NCBI GenBank assembly: GCA_902573755.1
Contig: CACGLD010000001.1
Location: 103,241-167,240 of the forward strand
Direction: 5' to 3'
Source: an uncultured Pelagibacteraceae bacterium
GTDB lineage: Bacteria > Pseudomonadota > Alphaproteobacteria > Pelagibacterales > Pelagibacteraceae
DNA: 64,000 bases
Notes under the pieces: generated by a model
Databases searched by the model: none
Told to the model about the DNA's origin: nothing
Seen by the model: the letters and a program-made list of their open reading frames with translations, nothing else
Position numbers and translations under genes: made by a program
Shown: one piece after another, positions 7,115 to 29,579 of the stretch
How positions within the stretch are numbered: the stretch's first letter is position 1
Layout of the letters: the number at the start of each line of letters is the position of its first letter

Positions 7115-7963
7115 TCAATCTCTTGTTGCAATATAAACACCTATAGAAGTAATTAGAAATCCAATTAAATCTAAGCTAGTTAAACTTTCATTTAAGAAAA
7201 GCCATGCCATAAAAGCAGATGTTGCTGGAATTAAAAAAAATATAGAAACAGTTTTGCTAGCTGAATTATTTTTTATTAAAAACATCAATATTGTAAATGC
7301 ACCAAATGATACTAAAAATATTTGATGGCTCATTGCAATGATAAACGTTTGCGAGAAATCAATGTACGGATCAACAAACAAAATAATTATTAATGAATGA
7401 AAAAAGCATCCACCGAGAGCTTGATTCATATTGCTCACAGACAACGGTAAGTTGTTACTTAATTTTTTTTGCCATAAAGTTGAAAATGTAATTGCTAATA
7501 AAGCTATTATTGTTGCGATCAATCCTGTTACCGGTATTTTAGAACCAACATCAAAACCTAATACAAGTCCTGCTCCAGCAAATCCTAACAAAACACCTAT
7601 CCATTGTTTTGTAGATACTTTCTCATTTAAAATTGGTCCACTTAATGCATTTGTAAGAATTGGTTGAAGGGTTACAATTAACGCTGCAATTGCCGTAGGC
7701 ATACCTATTGAAATTGAGTAAAATACACCCCCAAGATAAAAACCATGAAATAAAACACCACTTAAAAAAGATTCAAAAAAATTTCTTTTGCATACTAGAA
7801 TTTTTTGTTTTGAATAAATTGAAAATAAAAAAAAACCGAAAGCAACTAATGCAAATCTAAAAGCTAGAGCAGCAAATGGATCACTGTTATCTATGATAGG
7901 TTTGGTTGTTATGAAAGCTGAAGACCATAGAAGTATAAATATGAAAGGAAATATTTTAATCAT
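7115..7963 (-). CDS. DMT (EamA) family transporter
   Basis: 282 aa, ~10 hydrophobic segments, EamA repeat features. Confidence 0.88.
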   Translation of the reverse strand: MIKIFPFIFILLWSSAFITTKPIIDNSDPFAALAFRFALVAFGFFLFSIYSKQKILVCKRNFFESFLSGVLFHGFYLGGVFYSISIGMPTAIAALIVTLQPILTNALSGPILNEKVSTKQWIGVLLGFAGAGLVLGFDVGSKIPVTGLIATIIALLAITFSTLWQKKLSNNLPLSVSNMNQALGGCFFHSLIIILFVDPYIDFSQTFIIAMSHQIFLVSFGAFTILMFLIKNNSASKTVSIFFLIPATSAFMAWLFLNESLTSLDLIGFLITSIGVYIATRD

Positions 7964-8066
7964 CTTGTTTAATAAACAAATAAATCAAATAAAATCAAAC
8001 AAATCGGTACCTATTATGAACAAATTAGAAGTGGAAATGAAATACCAAATCACCTAAGGTTCACCA

Positions 8067-8453
8067 ATGAATTTTAAATTGTTTAGAATTTTAACAGTTA
8101 TACTGTCTTTCTTCTTATTGACAGGCTTTGTGCCCATTCTTTCATTTGTTGGTCCAGGTGTTACCGCTCTTACATCAGGTAATATCTATAAAGCGAGTGC
8201 ACAATTTATAGTTAATCAACGTATAGAAAAAGAAACTGGAAAAAATTCTTTAGCTTTGATCAAAGAAACTTTAGTTGAAGAAAAAGATATAAAAATTAAA
8301 AAAAATTCTTTTGATGAGGACTTAAGACAATTAGTTGAAACAAGAATAAAAATGACCAGACAAAAACTAGATAATCAAAATTTACAAAAACTACTTAAGA
8401 AACGAATTGAGGTTACTAGATCGATACTTGATTTAAATAATATTACTCAATAA
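8067..8453 (+). CDS. Hypothetical protein with N-terminal signal/TM segment
   Basis: 128 aa ORF; hydrophobic N-terminus then charged helical region. Confidence 0.7.
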   Translation: MNFKLFRILTVILSFFLLTGFVPILSFVGPGVTALTSGNIYKASAQFIVNQRIEKETGKNSLALIKETLVEEKDIKIKKNSFDEDLRQLVETRIKMTRQKLDNQNLQKLLKKRIEVTRSILDLNNITQ

Positions 8454-20657: not shown

Positions 20658-21845
20658 ATGAATTTAAATAAAAAATTATCAGACATCTTAGATCCCAATA
20701 AAATAGAAGTTGTTAAAAATCCTATAGAGAAAGCTCATGGATTACCTAATGAATGCTATTTGAATAATGATTATTTAGAGTTTGAGAAAGAAAAAATATT
20801 TAAAAATAATTGGACGATGATTGGGGTTGCAAGTTCTGTACCAAATCCAGGCGATGCAAAACCTTTTAATCTTTTAGGAATACCAATACTAATAGTTAGA
20901 AACAAAGAGAATGAAGTAAAAGTTTTTCACAATGTTTGTAGTCATAGAGGTTTCAAATTAGTTGATCAGGAATGTAAATTAAAAAATGTAATAAGATGCC
21001 CCTATCATTCCTGGTCCTATGATTTTAATGGAAAATTAACTGTTACTCCACACATAGGAGGACTAGGAAAAAATGAGGTTGAAGGGTTCGATAAAAACAA
21101 GAGTAACTTAAAAGAAATTAAATCAAATATTTGGATGGATTTAATTTTTATTAATATTAATTCTAATGCAAAACCATTTGAAGATTTTATTAAACCTCTA
21201 GAGGATAGATGGTCTAAGTTTATTTCTAAAAAAGATCAAAAATTAATAAGACATTCGACTGATAACGGATATTTTAATATGACTGTAAATAGTAATTGGA
21301 AATTTGCAATTGAGAATTATTGTGAAAGCTATCATTTGCCATGGATACATCCAGAACTAAATAAAGTTTCAAATATTTCGGATCACTATCATATTGAAGA
21401 TGAGAATTTTAATTTTTCAGGACAAGGAAGTAATAAATATTCACAACAGTTTGATGGAAATATTAAATTTAAATGCTTTCCTAACTGGCCAACTGAACTT
21501 TCTGAAAAATCTGAATATGTATCATTATATCCAAACGTAATGTTAGGAATACATATTGATCATTTCTATGCATTTTGGTTAGAGCCAATTTCTAACAATC
21601 AAACTAAAGAACATTTTGAATTATATTATGTTGGAGACGAAAGTGCCTCCAGTGATGAGTTTAAAGATATAAGAGAAAAAAATTTTGCATTTTGGCAAGA
21701 AGTTATGAATGAAGATGTAACTGCAATAGAAGGAATGCAAAACGGGCGAAATTCCCCAGCTTACAATGGTGGGAATTTTTCACCTGTAATGGATACTCCT
21801 ACTTTGATGTTTCATAAGTGGGTTGCAACCAACTTAACAAAATGA
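20658..21845 (+). CDS. Rieske (2Fe-2S) aromatic-ring-hydroxylating-type oxygenase alpha subunit, glycine-betaine demethylase-like
   Basis: CSHRGFKL...CPYHSWSYD Rieske motif; ENYCESYHLPWIHPEL Fe site; AGGAGG RBS. Confidence 0.88.
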   Translation: MNLNKKLSDILDPNKIEVVKNPIEKAHGLPNECYLNNDYLEFEKEKIFKNNWTMIGVASSVPNPGDAKPFNLLGIPILIVRNKENEVKVFHNVCSHRGFKLVDQECKLKNVIRCPYHSWSYDFNGKLTVTPHIGGLGKNEVEGFDKNKSNLKEIKSNIWMDLIFININSNAKPFEDFIKPLEDRWSKFISKKDQKLIRHSTDNGYFNMTVNSNWKFAIENYCESYHLPWIHPELNKVSNISDHYHIEDENFNFSGQGSNKYSQQFDGNIKFKCFPNWPTELSEKSEYVSLYPNVMLGIHIDHFYAFWLEPISNNQTKEHFELYYVGDESASSDEFKDIREKNFAFWQEVMNEDVTAIEGMQNGRNSPAYNGGNFSPVMDTPTLMFHKWVATNLTK

Positions 21846-25302: not shown

Positions 25303-25928
25303 TGGCTCAAAAAGACGTAGGAAACAAAATTCCAATTTATAAACTTAAAACCACAGATGAAGTTATGAAGTACTACGATGAGTGGGGAGACAAAGATAAA
25401 TATAATAAAGACATGGTTGATTGGAACTATACTGGACCCAAAGAAACCGCTGAAATATTTAATAAATATGAGAAAAATAAAGATACTTTAATTTTTGATG
25501 CTGGATGTGGAACAGGTTTAGTGGGATTAGAGCTTAAAAAATATAGTTTTAAAAATTTTCATGGAGCAGATTTATCTCAAACTTTATTAGACACTGTACC
25601 AAAAGATCTTTATCAAAAATTAGTAAAGGTTGATTTAAATAAATCAATAGAAGTTGAGGACAACTTTTATGGTGGAGTTATGTGTGTTGGAACATTTACT
25701 TTTGGGCATGTAAAACCAAATGCATTAGATGAATTTATAAGAATAACAAAACCAGGTGGTTTAATTTGTTTCACAATTAATGAAGGAATTCATGAAGAGT
25801 ATGGTTTTGATAAAAAAATTGATATACTCAAAGATAGCAAGAAGTGGGAAGAAGTAGAATTTTTTAAATCCGACTATATTGCAAGCAAAGATGTTAACGC
25901 ATGGTTAGGTTTGTATAGAGTATTATGA
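25302..25928 (+). CDS. Class I SAM-dependent methyltransferase
   Basis: LIFDAGCGTGLVGLELKKY. Confidence 0.88.
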   Translation: MAQKDVGNKIPIYKLKTTDEVMKYYDEWGDKDKYNKDMVDWNYTGPKETAEIFNKYEKNKDTLIFDAGCGTGLVGLELKKYSFKNFHGADLSQTLLDTVPKDLYQKLVKVDLNKSIEVEDNFYGGVMCVGTFTFGHVKPNALDEFIRITKPGGLICFTINEGIHEEYGFDKKIDILKDSKKWEEVEFFKSDYIASKDVNAWLGLYRVL

Positions 25929-27160
25929 GGTTTAGTAGAAAAATAGCTCCTGAGATAAAACCAAGACAAAATTTTATTACTAAAAAAAGATTAAGAGAAG
26001 ATGAAATTGATTTTGATAAGTTAAGATCATATCGTTTAGATAGAGTTAGAAAAGAATTAGTAAAAAACAATTTAGAAGCTTGTATTCTATTTGATCCAGT
26101 GAATGTTCGTTATGCTTTAGATACTGTAAACATGAGTGTCTATAACATGCATAACTTAACAAGATATTGTTTTGTACCGGTCAATGGACCAACCATTCTT
26201 TATGAGTATTTTAATTGTGAAATATTATCGAAGCATTTAAATCTAATTGACGAAATTAGACCTGCAATCACATGGGATTATTTTAGCAATGGAGATCAAG
26301 CAAATTTACAATTATCAAAATGGATAAATGAAGTTAAAGATTTATCAAAAAATTATTTTAAAACTAAAAAAATTGCAATCGATGTTTTAAATGGTCCTGC
26401 GGTTACAGCTTTAAATAAAGAAGGAATTGAAGTTGTAGATGCAAAATTGATTTTAGAACAAGCAAGAGTAATAAAATCACCTGATGAATTGACTTGTATG
26501 AAAGCTGCAATAGAAGTTGCAGAAAAAGGTGTATCAAAAATGAGATCAGATCTTAAGCCAGGAATGACTGAAGATGAATTGTGGTCAATTTTACATAAAA
26601 CGAATATTGAAAATGGAGGTGAGTGGATTGAGTGTAGGATTTTATCGTCTGGTGAAAGAACAAATCCATGGATGCAAGAGAGTAGTAATAAAGTTATGCA
26701 ACAAGGAGAAATTGTTGCTTTTGATACAGATATGGTTGGTCCCTATGGATACTGTGCTGACATATCAAGAGCCTTTGTAGTTGGACATAAATTTAATGAT
26801 GAGCAAAAAAAACTATATTCAATGGCTAGAAATCAAATTGAACATAATTTTAGATTAATAAAACCAGGAATGAGTTTTAAAGAATTTATAAAAAAATCTT
26901 GGGTTTTGCCTGATGAGTATTATGGAAATAGGTATTCATGTATGGTTCATGGAATTGGGTTGTGTGATGAGTGGCCTCAAATAAGATATCCAACTGATGG
27001 TGGAGAAGAAAGTGGAACTTTTGAGAAGAACATGACAATTACACTTGAGAGTTATATTGGTAAAGTTGGTGGTAAAGAAGGTGTAAAACTTGAACAACAG
27101 TATCTTGTAGGTGAAAATGGACTTGAATTAATGTCCCATCATCCGTTAGAAGATATTTAA
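25925..27160 (+). CDS. M24 metallopeptidase-fold protein, DddP-like (candidate DMSP lyase)
   Basis: HKTNIENGGEWIECRILSSGERTNPWMQES, FDTDMVGPYGYCADISRAF, MVHGIGLCDEWPQIRYP. Confidence 0.75.
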   Translation: MRFSRKIAPEIKPRQNFITKKRLREDEIDFDKLRSYRLDRVRKELVKNNLEACILFDPVNVRYALDTVNMSVYNMHNLTRYCFVPVNGPTILYEYFNCEILSKHLNLIDEIRPAITWDYFSNGDQANLQLSKWINEVKDLSKNYFKTKKIAIDVLNGPAVTALNKEGIEVVDAKLILEQARVIKSPDELTCMKAAIEVAEKGVSKMRSDLKPGMTEDELWSILHKTNIENGGEWIECRILSSGERTNPWMQESSNKVMQQGEIVAFDTDMVGPYGYCADISRAFVVGHKFNDEQKKLYSMARNQIEHNFRLIKPGMSFKEFIKKSWVLPDEYYGNRYSCMVHGIGLCDEWPQIRYPTDGGEESGTFEKNMTITLESYIGKVGGKEGVKLEQQYLVGENGLELMSHHPLEDI

Positions 27161-27570
27161 TGAAAATTATTTTAGTAATGGGTTTACCTGGAGCTGGTAA
27201 AACAACTCTAGCAAACGAAATGGCACCACTCTTAAATGCAAAAAGATTAAATGCAGACGAAGTAAGAAAAGCTGCAAATGATTGGGATTTTTCAGAAGAA
27301 GGAAGGGTAAGACAAGCAAAAAGAATGGCTGAAGCAGCTTTAAAATTAAAAGGAGAAGGTAATTATGTAATCGCAGATTTCATTGCACCAACCCCTGAAG
27401 CAAGAAGCTTATTTCCAGCAGATTTTAGAGTGTGGGTCGACACTATTAAAAAGGGAAGGTTTGAAGACACTAATCAAATGTTTGTTAATCCTAAGAATTT
27501 TGATTTTCATGTAACAACTCAGGATGCAAAAAATTGGGCACCAAAAATAATAAAGGAGATAAAAAAATGA
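27160..27570 (+). CDS. APS kinase-like P-loop kinase
   Basis: 136 aa; ILVMGLPGAGKTTLANEMAPLL Walker A. Confidence 0.8.
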   Translation: MKIILVMGLPGAGKTTLANEMAPLLNAKRLNADEVRKAANDWDFSEEGRVRQAKRMAEAALKLKGEGNYVIADFIAPTPEARSLFPADFRVWVDTIKKGRFEDTNQMFVNPKNFDFHVTTQDAKNWAPKIIKEIKK

Positions 27571-27941
27571 CATATAAATGGGATAACAAAAAACCAACAG
27601 CGCAAATGCTAGGCAGATGGCAACCTTTTCACGATGGACATTATACTTTGTTTAAAGAAATTATTAAAAAAACAGGACAAGTTTGTATTCAAATTAGAGA
27701 TGTGCAAGGTGTAGACGATAATCCTTTTGATTTCGAAACAGTAAAAAAAAACATTGAAGATAGATTAAATCCTGAATTTGAAGGACAATTTAAAATAATG
27801 TTAGTACCTAATATTACAAATATTTGTTATGGTAGAGGAGTTGGATATAAGATTGAGGAAATAGTTTTGGATGAAGAAACTCAAAAAATATCAGCTACTA
27901 AGATAAGAGCAAAAATGAGAGAAGAGGGAAAGTTAAAATAA
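27567..27941 (+). CDS. Cytidylyltransferase-like nucleotidylyltransferase
   Basis: GRWQPFHDGHYTLFKEII (HxGH-type) and ISATKIRAKM; ATG at 27567 overlaps previous stop (ATGA); track start 27534 is an upstream TTG. Confidence 0.82.
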   Translation: MTYKWDNKKPTAQMLGRWQPFHDGHYTLFKEIIKKTGQVCIQIRDVQGVDDNPFDFETVKKNIEDRLNPEFEGQFKIMLVPNITNICYGRGVGYKIEEIVLDEETQKISATKIRAKMREEGKLK

Positions 27942-27947
27942 ACTTAA

Positions 27948-28799
27948 ATGAACGATAGACTTAAGACTATTGTAGATTTAGAAAAATATCCAATATACGA
28001 TTTAAATTCACCAATAATTAAAAATCTTATTAAAAAATGTAAAGAAGAACTTGATCAATATAGTTGTTCAACAATTCCAAATTTTATTTTACCTAAATCA
28101 CTTAAGGTAATGAATTCTGAGTTAGAAAAACAATTAGATGAAGTTTATATGTCTAAAGAAAGTATAAATGCATACTTGTATGCGAAGGACGATCCTTCAT
28201 TACCAAAAGATCATCCAAAAAGAACTTTTATGAATAGATATAATGGATATTTAAATTCAGATTGTTTTCCAAAAGACTCTGAAATGAAATATCTTTACGA
28301 AACTGAAGAACTTTTAAAATTTGTATCTGCTTGTTTAGGCGTTTCACCTATTTACAGATGGGCGGATCCTTTAGCATGTCATGCGTACAATGTTATGAAA
28401 CCAGATGGGGTACTCCCATGGCATTTTGATAGTTGTGAATTTACACTCAGTTTAATGATACAAAAACCTGAGAAGGGAGGAATATTTGAGTACTGTCCAA
28501 ATATTAGAGAACCAGGAAATGAAAATTTCGAAGAAGTTCAAAAAGTTATAGCAGGAGATAGAACTAGAGTGAGACAATTGAAATTAGAGCCAGGAGATTT
28601 ACAAATATTTAAAGGAAGATTTACTTTGCATAGAGTAACAAAAGTTGAAGGTCAAAAATCAAGATATATGTGTATTCCTGCTTATGTTTTGGATCCATGG
28701 AGAGTTAATACACCAGAACATTCCAAAGCTATTTATGGCAAAGTTTTACCAATTCATATAGAAAGAAATCAGGCTAGATCTGACGGATTAACTGATTAA
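27948..28799 (+). CDS. 2-oxoglutarate/Fe(II)-dependent oxygenase, HalD/BesD-like
   Basis: PWHFDSCEFTLSLMIQKPEKGGIFEYCPNIR with intact HxD, distal H in FTLHRVTKVEG. Confidence 0.75.
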   Translation: MNDRLKTIVDLEKYPIYDLNSPIIKNLIKKCKEELDQYSCSTIPNFILPKSLKVMNSELEKQLDEVYMSKESINAYLYAKDDPSLPKDHPKRTFMNRYNGYLNSDCFPKDSEMKYLYETEELLKFVSACLGVSPIYRWADPLACHAYNVMKPDGVLPWHFDSCEFTLSLMIQKPEKGGIFEYCPNIREPGNENFEEVQKVIAGDRTRVRQLKLEPGDLQIFKGRFTLHRVTKVEGQKSRYMCIPAYVLDPWRVNTPEHSKAIYGKVLPIHIERNQARSDGLTD

Positions 28800-29579
28800 A
28801 TGACAAGCAATATAAAAATTAAAAAAAATAACAACGAAGTTTCATCAATTATTATTGATGAACCAAAAACTTATAACTCTTTATCATTCAAAAATCTTTC
28901 AGATTTATTAAAGACATTAAAAAAATTAGATGCTGATAAAAAAGTTAAAGTAATAATATTAGAGGGTGCCGGTAAAGGATTTAGTGCAGGTCATAATTTA
29001 AAAGAAGTTAGAGGTTTAAAAAAGAAAGATAAATATTTAAAATTATTTAATCTTTGTTCAAAAGTAATGCTTCAGATTGTTGAAGGTAGGAAACCTGTAA
29101 TTGCTAAAGTTCATGGAGCAGCATTTGCAGCTGGATGTCAATTGGTTGCAAGTTGTGATTTAGCTTATAGTACTAAAGACGCATTATTCGCTACTCCTGG
29201 TGTCAATATTGGTTTGTTTTGTAGTACACCTATGGTGGCTGTCAGTAGAAAGATAAATCGAAAACCTATGATGAAAATGCTTTTAACTGGAGAACCTATC
29301 AATGCAAATTATGCAAAAGAAATAGGGTTGATAAATGATAATTTTTCAAAAGCCAAATTAAACAAAGAAGTGTTAAAAGTAGCAAATAAAATTGCTTCTA
29401 AATCTAATTTAACAATAAAAATTGGAAAGCAAGCTTTTTACAAACAATTAGAAATGCCATTAAGTAAAGCTTACGCTTATACAAGTAAAATGATGACCCT
29501 TAATATGATGGCAATGGATGCAAAAGAAGGAATTTCTGCTTTCCTTGAAAAAAGGAAACCTAAATGGAAAAATAAATAA
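28800..29579 (+). CDS. Enoyl-CoA hydratase/isomerase family protein (ECHDC3-like)
   Basis: FSAGHNLKEV, HGAAFAAGCQLVASCDLAYS. Confidence 0.9.
   Translation: MTSNIKIKKNNNEVSSIIIDEPKTYNSLSFKNLSDLLKTLKKLDADKKVKVIILEGAGKGFSAGHNLKEVRGLKKKDKYLKLFNLCSKVMLQIVEGRKPVIAKVHGAAFAAGCQLVASCDLAYSTKDALFATPGVNIGLFCSTPMVAVSRKINRKPMMKMLLTGEPINANYAKEIGLINDNFSKAKLNKEVLKVANKIASKSNLTIKIGKQAFYKQLEMPLSKAYAYTSKMMTLNMMAMDAKEGISAFLEKRKPKWKNK

Follow-up and report, generated by a model that had tools for sequence, protein, structure and literature searches.

Two overlapping genes, for a compact P-loop kinase (KIN) and a small HxGH nucleotidylyltransferase (NT), lie in a 64,000-nucleotide stretch of DNA from an uncultured Pelagibacteraceae bacterium (assembly GCA_902573755.1, contig CACGLD010000001.1, positions 103,241 to 167,240; hereafter the window), and probably form a sulfate-activating pair. 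Two types of ATP sulfurylase are known, Sat and CysDN; in the reading that we favor, with a probability of roughly 80%, NT is a third, minimal type unrelated to either, and KIN is a compact adenosine 5'-phosphosulfate (APS) kinase. The pair would then work like a 3'-phosphoadenosine 5'-phosphosulfate (PAPS) synthetase, but its members fall outside the canonical APS kinase, Sat and CysDN families. This reading draws on family membership, gene order, gene fusions, co-occurrence and the absence of canonical enzymes. A preliminary description of the window had joined the two genes to an adjacent 2-oxoglutarate (2OG)/Fe(II) oxygenase gene as a cassette, had considered a role in sulfate metabolism unlikely, and had suggested a dedicated osmolyte as the substrate. 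All three open reading frames (ORFs) that it placed, for the kinase (27160-27570), the nucleotidylyltransferase (27567-27941) and the oxygenase (27948-28799), were found exactly there, and NT does begin inside the stop codon of KIN, its ATG at 27567 overlapping the TGA (ATGA, 27567-27570). KIN and NT recur in most of 61 related genomes (48 and 44, respectively), mostly at high identity, and are therefore real genes rather than chance frames; four of the KIN matches (in genomes G038, G039, G049 and G050) are weak and fall in the APS-kinase part of longer proteins.

27160..27570, + strand: KIN, compact APS-kinase-like P-loop kinase of 136 aa with a shortened lid region (Pfam, fold, CysC alignment)
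27181..27204, + strand: Walker A motif GLPGAGKT of KIN (sequence; alignment A5)
27567..27941, + strand: NT, proposed minimal ATP sulfurylase, HxGH nucleotidylyltransferase of 124 aa (profile, model, context, clade)
27630..27641, + strand: HDGH catalytic motif of NT, residues 22-25 (sequence; alignment A2)
27828..27848, + strand: NT signature YGRGVGY, residues 88-94 (alignment A2)
27888..27908, + strand: ISATKIR motif of NT, residues 108-114 (alignment A2)

Seventy-seven SAR11 loci were fetched from named genomes, and neighbors were counted in those with enough flanking sequence (73 loci; 67 for the Rieske oxygenase gene). KIN accompanies NT in 67 of the 73, and NT is followed by an enoyl-CoA hydratase family gene (ECH) in 72; the 2OG oxygenase gene stands beside NT in just 5. 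We conclude that KIN and NT form a unit, and that the oxygenase is an occasional passenger outside it. Conservation of the neighborhood across SAR11 thus holds for the pair, which the preliminary description had rightly kept together, and fails for the three-gene set; rare co-location, which that description had named as grounds for rejecting its cassette, is what we found for the oxygenase gene. Activation of an osmolyte as a nucleoside diphosphate (NDP) derivative by a three-gene cassette was rejected on the same count. Some Alphaproteobacteria and many viral contigs encode the two as a single fused protein, and the phage family PHROG 10255 (230 residues) matches KIN in its first half (5e-31) and NT in its second (7.5e-22). 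A second, divergent pair was seen in the SAR11 genome G013 (L068:9061-9965), away from the usual locus; its NT is 45% identical to the window NT, and its kinase has a P-loop (GLSGAGKT) nearer that of the usual APS kinases. In the near-complete SAR11 genome G357 (L060:9525-10305) NT is broken by a frame break near residue 47, reflecting either a pseudogene or a sequencing error.

KIN matches the Pfam APS_kinase model (PF01583) with 42.5 bits, over the cut-off of 21.1 (E = 9e-11). Its AlphaFold model has a pLDDT of 94.9, and the ten best fold matches to it in the PDB, searched with Foldseek, are all APS kinases (TMq 0.74-0.85, E in the 1e-7 range). Alignment with CysC runs through the P-loop, DxxR, an F-S/T..R motif, P..R after strand 3, and what is left of the lid (F...P). 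Phage and bacterial copies share 24 invariant columns (alignment A5), including Walker A residues G8, L9, P10, G11, G13 and K14. As judged from its sequence, KIN appears to be a compact APS-kinase-like enzyme standing outside the canonical APS kinase family.

The sole Pfam match of NT is to CTP_transf_like (22.4 bits, cut-off 21); it has no match to the Sat family model PF01747. NT is related to the NMN adenylyltransferases (NMNATs) but has 117-124 residues, about 40-50 fewer, and the models for that family score NT far under their cut-offs (TIGR01527, 23.8 bits against 181; PRK01153, 27.6 against 127). Its structural model has a pLDDT of 93.3. The window copy reads GRWQPFHDGH...ISATKIR; in 51 NT sequences (alignment A2) the invariant features are H22, G24 and H25, R44, the GR-QP-H-GH pattern, G89, R90, V92 and G93 of a YGRxVGY core, and S109, A110, T111, I113 and R114 of SATxIR. 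In human PAPSS1, ATP sulfurylase activity requires H425 and H428 of the HNGH motif, 425-428 (PMC11697783). A phylogenetic tree places the NTs of compact KINs and those associated with canonical APS kinases in one clade apart from NMNATs (support 100/99); the YGRGVGY signature is present in most, not all, of the NTs linked to canonical APS kinases. Scanning a genome collection gave almost only close SAR11 relatives, and a phylum-wide search returned, besides the window genome and one alphaproteobacterium, weak matches only, in NMNAT/Nudix-type frames of 343-417 aa.

NTs joined to canonical APS kinases were also found. Searching viral contigs with an alignment of APS kinases yielded 39 loci, of which 19 contain NT, directly adjacent or fused to the kinase in 15 and one gene away in 4; CysD and CysNC occur in one of the 39, and Sat in none. 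When the 28 proteins with canonical APS kinase motifs were clustered at 90% identity, 14 of the 18 clusters included NT. Three loci (L368, L372 and L373) encode a complete APS kinase followed by NT within one ORF; for L368 and L373 Pfam reports APS_kinase (E about 1e-66) as well as CTP_transf_like, and in L368 a sulfotransferase gene lies just upstream of the fusion. A scan that started from sulfotransferases led to L294, on a viral contig of 464 kb, where the gene of a full-length APS kinase (TIGR00455, 229 bits; cut-off 139) is overlapped by that of an NT homologue and a sulfotransferase is encoded three genes from them. Another recurrent neighbor of KIN-NT or canonical APS kinase is a small membrane protein of the DUF2061 family (L056:7285-7551; L371:4580-5011; L376:3767-4939; L294:6813-7271). 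Pfam confirmed it in L056, L371 and L376, in the last as a fusion with the APS kinase, and in L294 it was recognized by eye. These positions suggest that it may take part in sulfate handling.

Sulfotransferases, identified by Pfam Sulfotransfer_3 as checked on a family representative, are present in 34 of 80 viral NT loci and lie immediately beside KIN or NT in 24. Permuting positions within loci gave a mean of 7.3 adjacent sulfotransferases, and none of 2000 permutations reached 24; in the reciprocal scan, 11 of 80 sulfotransferase loci carried NT. Background sulfotransferase density was controlled by these two procedures only; a control scan of viral contigs with phage DNA ligase gave nothing. 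A sulfotransferase also lies within 10 kb of KIN-NT in genomes G441, G246 and G175. Most SAR11 genomes checked have sulfotransferases of the tetratricopeptide repeat (TPR) type, so a user of PAPS would exist there.

The gene order cysG-type SUMT, CysI, CysH, DUF2061, KIN, NT is shared by four genomes (G392, G313, G215 and G083) from a single alphaproteobacterial family. In G392 the NCBIfam scores exceed the cut-offs for SUMT, CysI (707 bits against 457) and CysH (248 against 154). Of the four, G083 alone yielded a Sat, a true ATP sulfurylase (L151:1480-2544) besides the KIN-NT next to cysHI, and in none did CysN exceed its cut-off. In the other three, which are incomplete (68-89%), CysH and CysI are present and KIN-NT is the sole visible candidate for sulfate activation. 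Across the 33 genomes checked, Sat is present in 1 (G083) and CysN over cut-off in 4 (G038, G039, G158 and G246); the three Pelagibacterales with CysN (G038, G039 and G158) all lack NT, and the window genome has no match to Sat (PF01747). The preliminary description had taken the absence of cysND and cysH as a sign against sulfate. That absence is real in the Pelagibacter genomes checked, but it points the opposite way, as NT seems to fill the slot of the ATP sulfurylase.

The KIN-NT genes of a second SAR11 family are convergent with a gene run that contains AprA (TIGR02061, 991 bits against a cut-off of 642), together with a ferredoxin-like protein of 154 aa, which we read as a putative AprB, and a membrane protein of 265 aa, which we take to be AprM. 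AprA and NT agree in status in all 24 genomes of this family (16 with both, 8 with neither; Fisher p = 1.4e-6). In the 61 relatives, 41 have both, 3 NT only, 7 AprA only and 10 neither, so that 51 agree (p = 4e-5); the disagreements are all in the genus Pelagibacter, in genomes at most 92% complete. This co-occurrence includes that genus, where the two loci are unlinked; in the window genome itself AprA is on another contig (G000:C16). A conserved protein of 116-117 aa lies directly 3' of AprA in two SAR11 families (L065:9519-9869; L185:3350-3703); for the copy in L065, neither Pfam nor NCBIfam gave a match. In the complete SAR11 genome G012 (L160:679-3241), a 495-aa PAPS-reductase-family protein adjoins a DGQHR-motif protein; the two look like the DndC/DndB pair of DNA phosphorothioation.

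Relatives of the pair are thus linked to CysI/CysH, AprA, sulfotransferases and canonical APS kinases, which contradicts the earlier view that a sulfate role is unlikely and lends no support to a dedicated osmolyte. The proposal that the two enzymes activate a small acid as a nucleotide derivative is, from these contexts, probably right, and the acid is most likely sulfate. We infer the reactions, their direction in SAR11 and the consumer of PAPS, with context and fusions as the basis for the ATP sulfurylase activity. NT would use its NMNAT-type HxGH fold for adenylyl transfer (ATP + sulfate <-> APS + PPi, pyrophosphate), and KIN would phosphorylate the product (APS + ATP -> PAPS + ADP), so that the two, separate or fused as in relatives, would constitute a small PAPS synthetase. 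The forward direction is expected where CysH/CysI or sulfotransferases are present. The role ascribed to AprBA in SAR11 is the removal of sulfite (PMC12636525), which would proceed by forming APS; NT working in reverse (APS + PPi -> ATP + sulfate) would therefore yield sulfate and ATP, completing a cytoplasmic oxidation of sulfite with ATP formation. KIN could there divert APS to PAPS for the TPR sulfotransferase. From this analysis, SAR11 NT probably turns AprBA-made APS into sulfate and ATP, supplies PAPS to the sulfotransferase, or does both. Several SAR11 loci have lost KIN and kept NT, which fits the reverse direction. The broader proposition, that this is a third, unrelated, very small ATP sulfurylase family spread by phages, and that SAR11 gains ATP by running it in reverse while oxidizing sulfite derived from organosulfur compounds, is more tentative, and we give it slightly less than an even chance.

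Known systems resemble the pair in part. Bifunctional PAPS synthetases (human PAPSS1/2; Aquifex Sat-APSK) also combine an APS kinase with an HxxH ATP sulfurylase, the human enzymes have the kinase N-terminal, and the HNGH of PAPSS1 corresponds to HDGH in NT; the sulfurylase part of the pair, however, is an NMNAT-like domain of 117-155 residues without a Sat match, and the window has two separate overlapping genes and a compact kinase. NT occupies the same genomic slot as CysD-CysN(C), with APS kinase and CysH/CysI, and the two are mutually exclusive in the Pelagibacterales checked, but CysD belongs to the PP-loop enzymes and CysN to the GTPases, whereas NT is a nucleotidylyltransferase of the HxGH type, and no GTPase partner was seen for it. 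NadM (1ej2), the archaeal type of NMN adenylyltransferase, has the fold of NT and the GRxQPFHxGH and ISxTxIR motifs; NT differs in its scores far under the family cut-offs, its shorter length, separate clade, YGRxVGY signature and sulfur context. PHROG 10255 has the same two-domain architecture but is annotated just as a kinase, with no pathway. In the open-access literature we found no account of KIN-NT as a sulfate-activating pair.

Several observations weigh against sulfate activation by KIN-NT. KIN scores 35.2 bits against the NCBIfam apsK model TIGR00455, below the cut-off of 138.7. Canonical APS kinases have a DGDN motif and a full lid, RDPKGLYKKAR...FTGIDxPYE; in 156 of 160 KINs NAD replaces DGD, so that DGDN lacks its first Asp, and the lid is largely missing, shortened to GRFEDTNxxFxxP, so we do not class KIN as a canonical APS kinase. 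The nearest solved folds of NT are NMNATs and phosphopantetheine adenylyltransferases (PPATs), with no ATP sulfurylase among the top 50 matches. No clear homology to Sat was found either (hhalign probability 41% against one Sat sequence), and direct homology is not claimed, as the local hhalign matches were inconsistent. NT coexists with Sat in G083 and with CysN in G246, and its co-occurrence with AprA in the second SAR11 family is not independent, because the genes are linked there. In two SAR11 genomes with a sulfotransferase, G043 and G048, no NT, KIN, CysN or Sat was found. For the fused KIN-NT of Stenotrophomonas phage Bhz60, no sulfotransferase or CysH was detected in 50 of 56.6 kb; this gene (L033:5157-6983) has a NADAR gene on one side and a DNA methyltransferase gene on the other. 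Finally, the sulfate reading does not account for the constant neighbor ECH and the usual Rieske neighbor in Pelagibacter.

The divergence of KIN from the canonical kinases and the Pelagibacter neighborhood of Rieske, methylamine and CoA genes, with ECH as the near-constant neighbor, would also suit an NT that activates some other small acid or phosphate (an NDP-linked alcohol, an osmolyte or a surface-polymer precursor) which KIN makes or modifies, the sulfur contexts being coincidental; some phage KIN-NT genes do lie amid methyltransferase, glycosyltransferase and 2OG genes. We consider this unlikely, since the coincidence would have to recur in four different sulfur settings, in one of which NT is fused directly to a canonical APS kinase. 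For a nucleotidylyltransferase fused to a kinase that acts on the 3'-OH of adenylyl sulfate, APS is the simplest product to expect. A NadR-like module for NAD salvage, with an NMN adenylyltransferase and a nicotinamide-riboside kinase, accounts for the closest folds and weak profile matches of NT, which are NMNATs, and for the NADAR gene in Bhz60. It was rejected as very improbable on scores, clade and context: NT is well short of the PRK01153 cut-off, smaller than NMNATs and in a clade of its own, KIN matches APS kinase by both sequence and fold, and no NAD genes were noticed around KIN-NT other than in Bhz60.

Sulfate activation by NT is compatible with another variant, in which KIN of SAR11 is decaying or repurposed, so that no working APS kinase and no PAPS would be present there. 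At least five SAR11 loci keep NT without KIN, and overall KIN is missing at 6 of 73; in L104, L107, L126, L127 and L131 (about 7900-8400) NT is intact and the locus has no tblastn match to KIN, and in the 77% complete genome G036, which has NT as well as AprA, KIN was not found. The lost Asp and lid point the same way. We regard the variant as doubtful, though deserving of some weight, as the invariant columns of KIN are kept across phage and bacterial copies, the gene is retained at the great majority of SAR11 loci, and the sulfotransferase in most checked SAR11 genomes would need PAPS. The five loci without KIN, all with NT upstream of ECH, show two or more distinct gene orders.

The surrounding genes of the window are as follows.

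27948..28799, + strand: 2OG-Fe(II) oxygenase, HalD-like hydroxylase of 283 aa, accessory passenger (Pfam PF23169, 6.6e-12; HxD)
28800..29579, + strand: enoyl-CoA hydratase family gene, ECH (PRK08139, 351.7 bits against a cut-off of 313)
20658..21845, + strand: Rieske oxygenase, GbcA-like, the usual upstream neighbor of KIN-NT in the genus (profile matches, locus maps)

The 2OG oxygenase matches the HalD family (PF23169, 45.8 bits; cut-off 26), but its iron site, WHFDSCEF, is an intact HxD (H159, F, D161), as in hydroxylases. Halogenases have HxG at this site, which leaves room for the halide, and a halogenase reading was rejected despite the family match. The Rieske gene lies at most 7.5 kb upstream of KIN-NT in 42 of 67 SAR11 loci. 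Between it and KIN-NT the window has genes of BHMT (homocysteine methyltransferase), DMGDH, methyltransferase and M24 types. The best NCBIfam match of the M24/creatinase protein (25925-27160) is the dimethylsulfoniopropionate (DMSP) lyase DddP, at 352 bits against a cut-off of 600; on sequence it would be a DddP paralogue, its identity as a DMSP lyase being unconfirmed by the score.

In SAR11, aprAB belong to the core genes and experience purifying selection that is among the strongest, and the sulfate pathways of SAR11 have been described as incomplete (PMC12636525). If our reading is correct, a dedicated, previously unnamed ATP sulfurylase would close this gap, and sulfite oxidation in SAR11 could have an ATP yield. 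SAR11 are heterotrophs and the most abundant bacteria of the ocean. Many phage genes annotated as 'kinase' or 'hypothetical' would be PAPS synthetases serving phage sulfotransferases, and a genome without Sat or CysND could not be read as one without sulfate activation. The pair could thus explain how SAR11 and many phages handle activated sulfate without a recognized enzyme.

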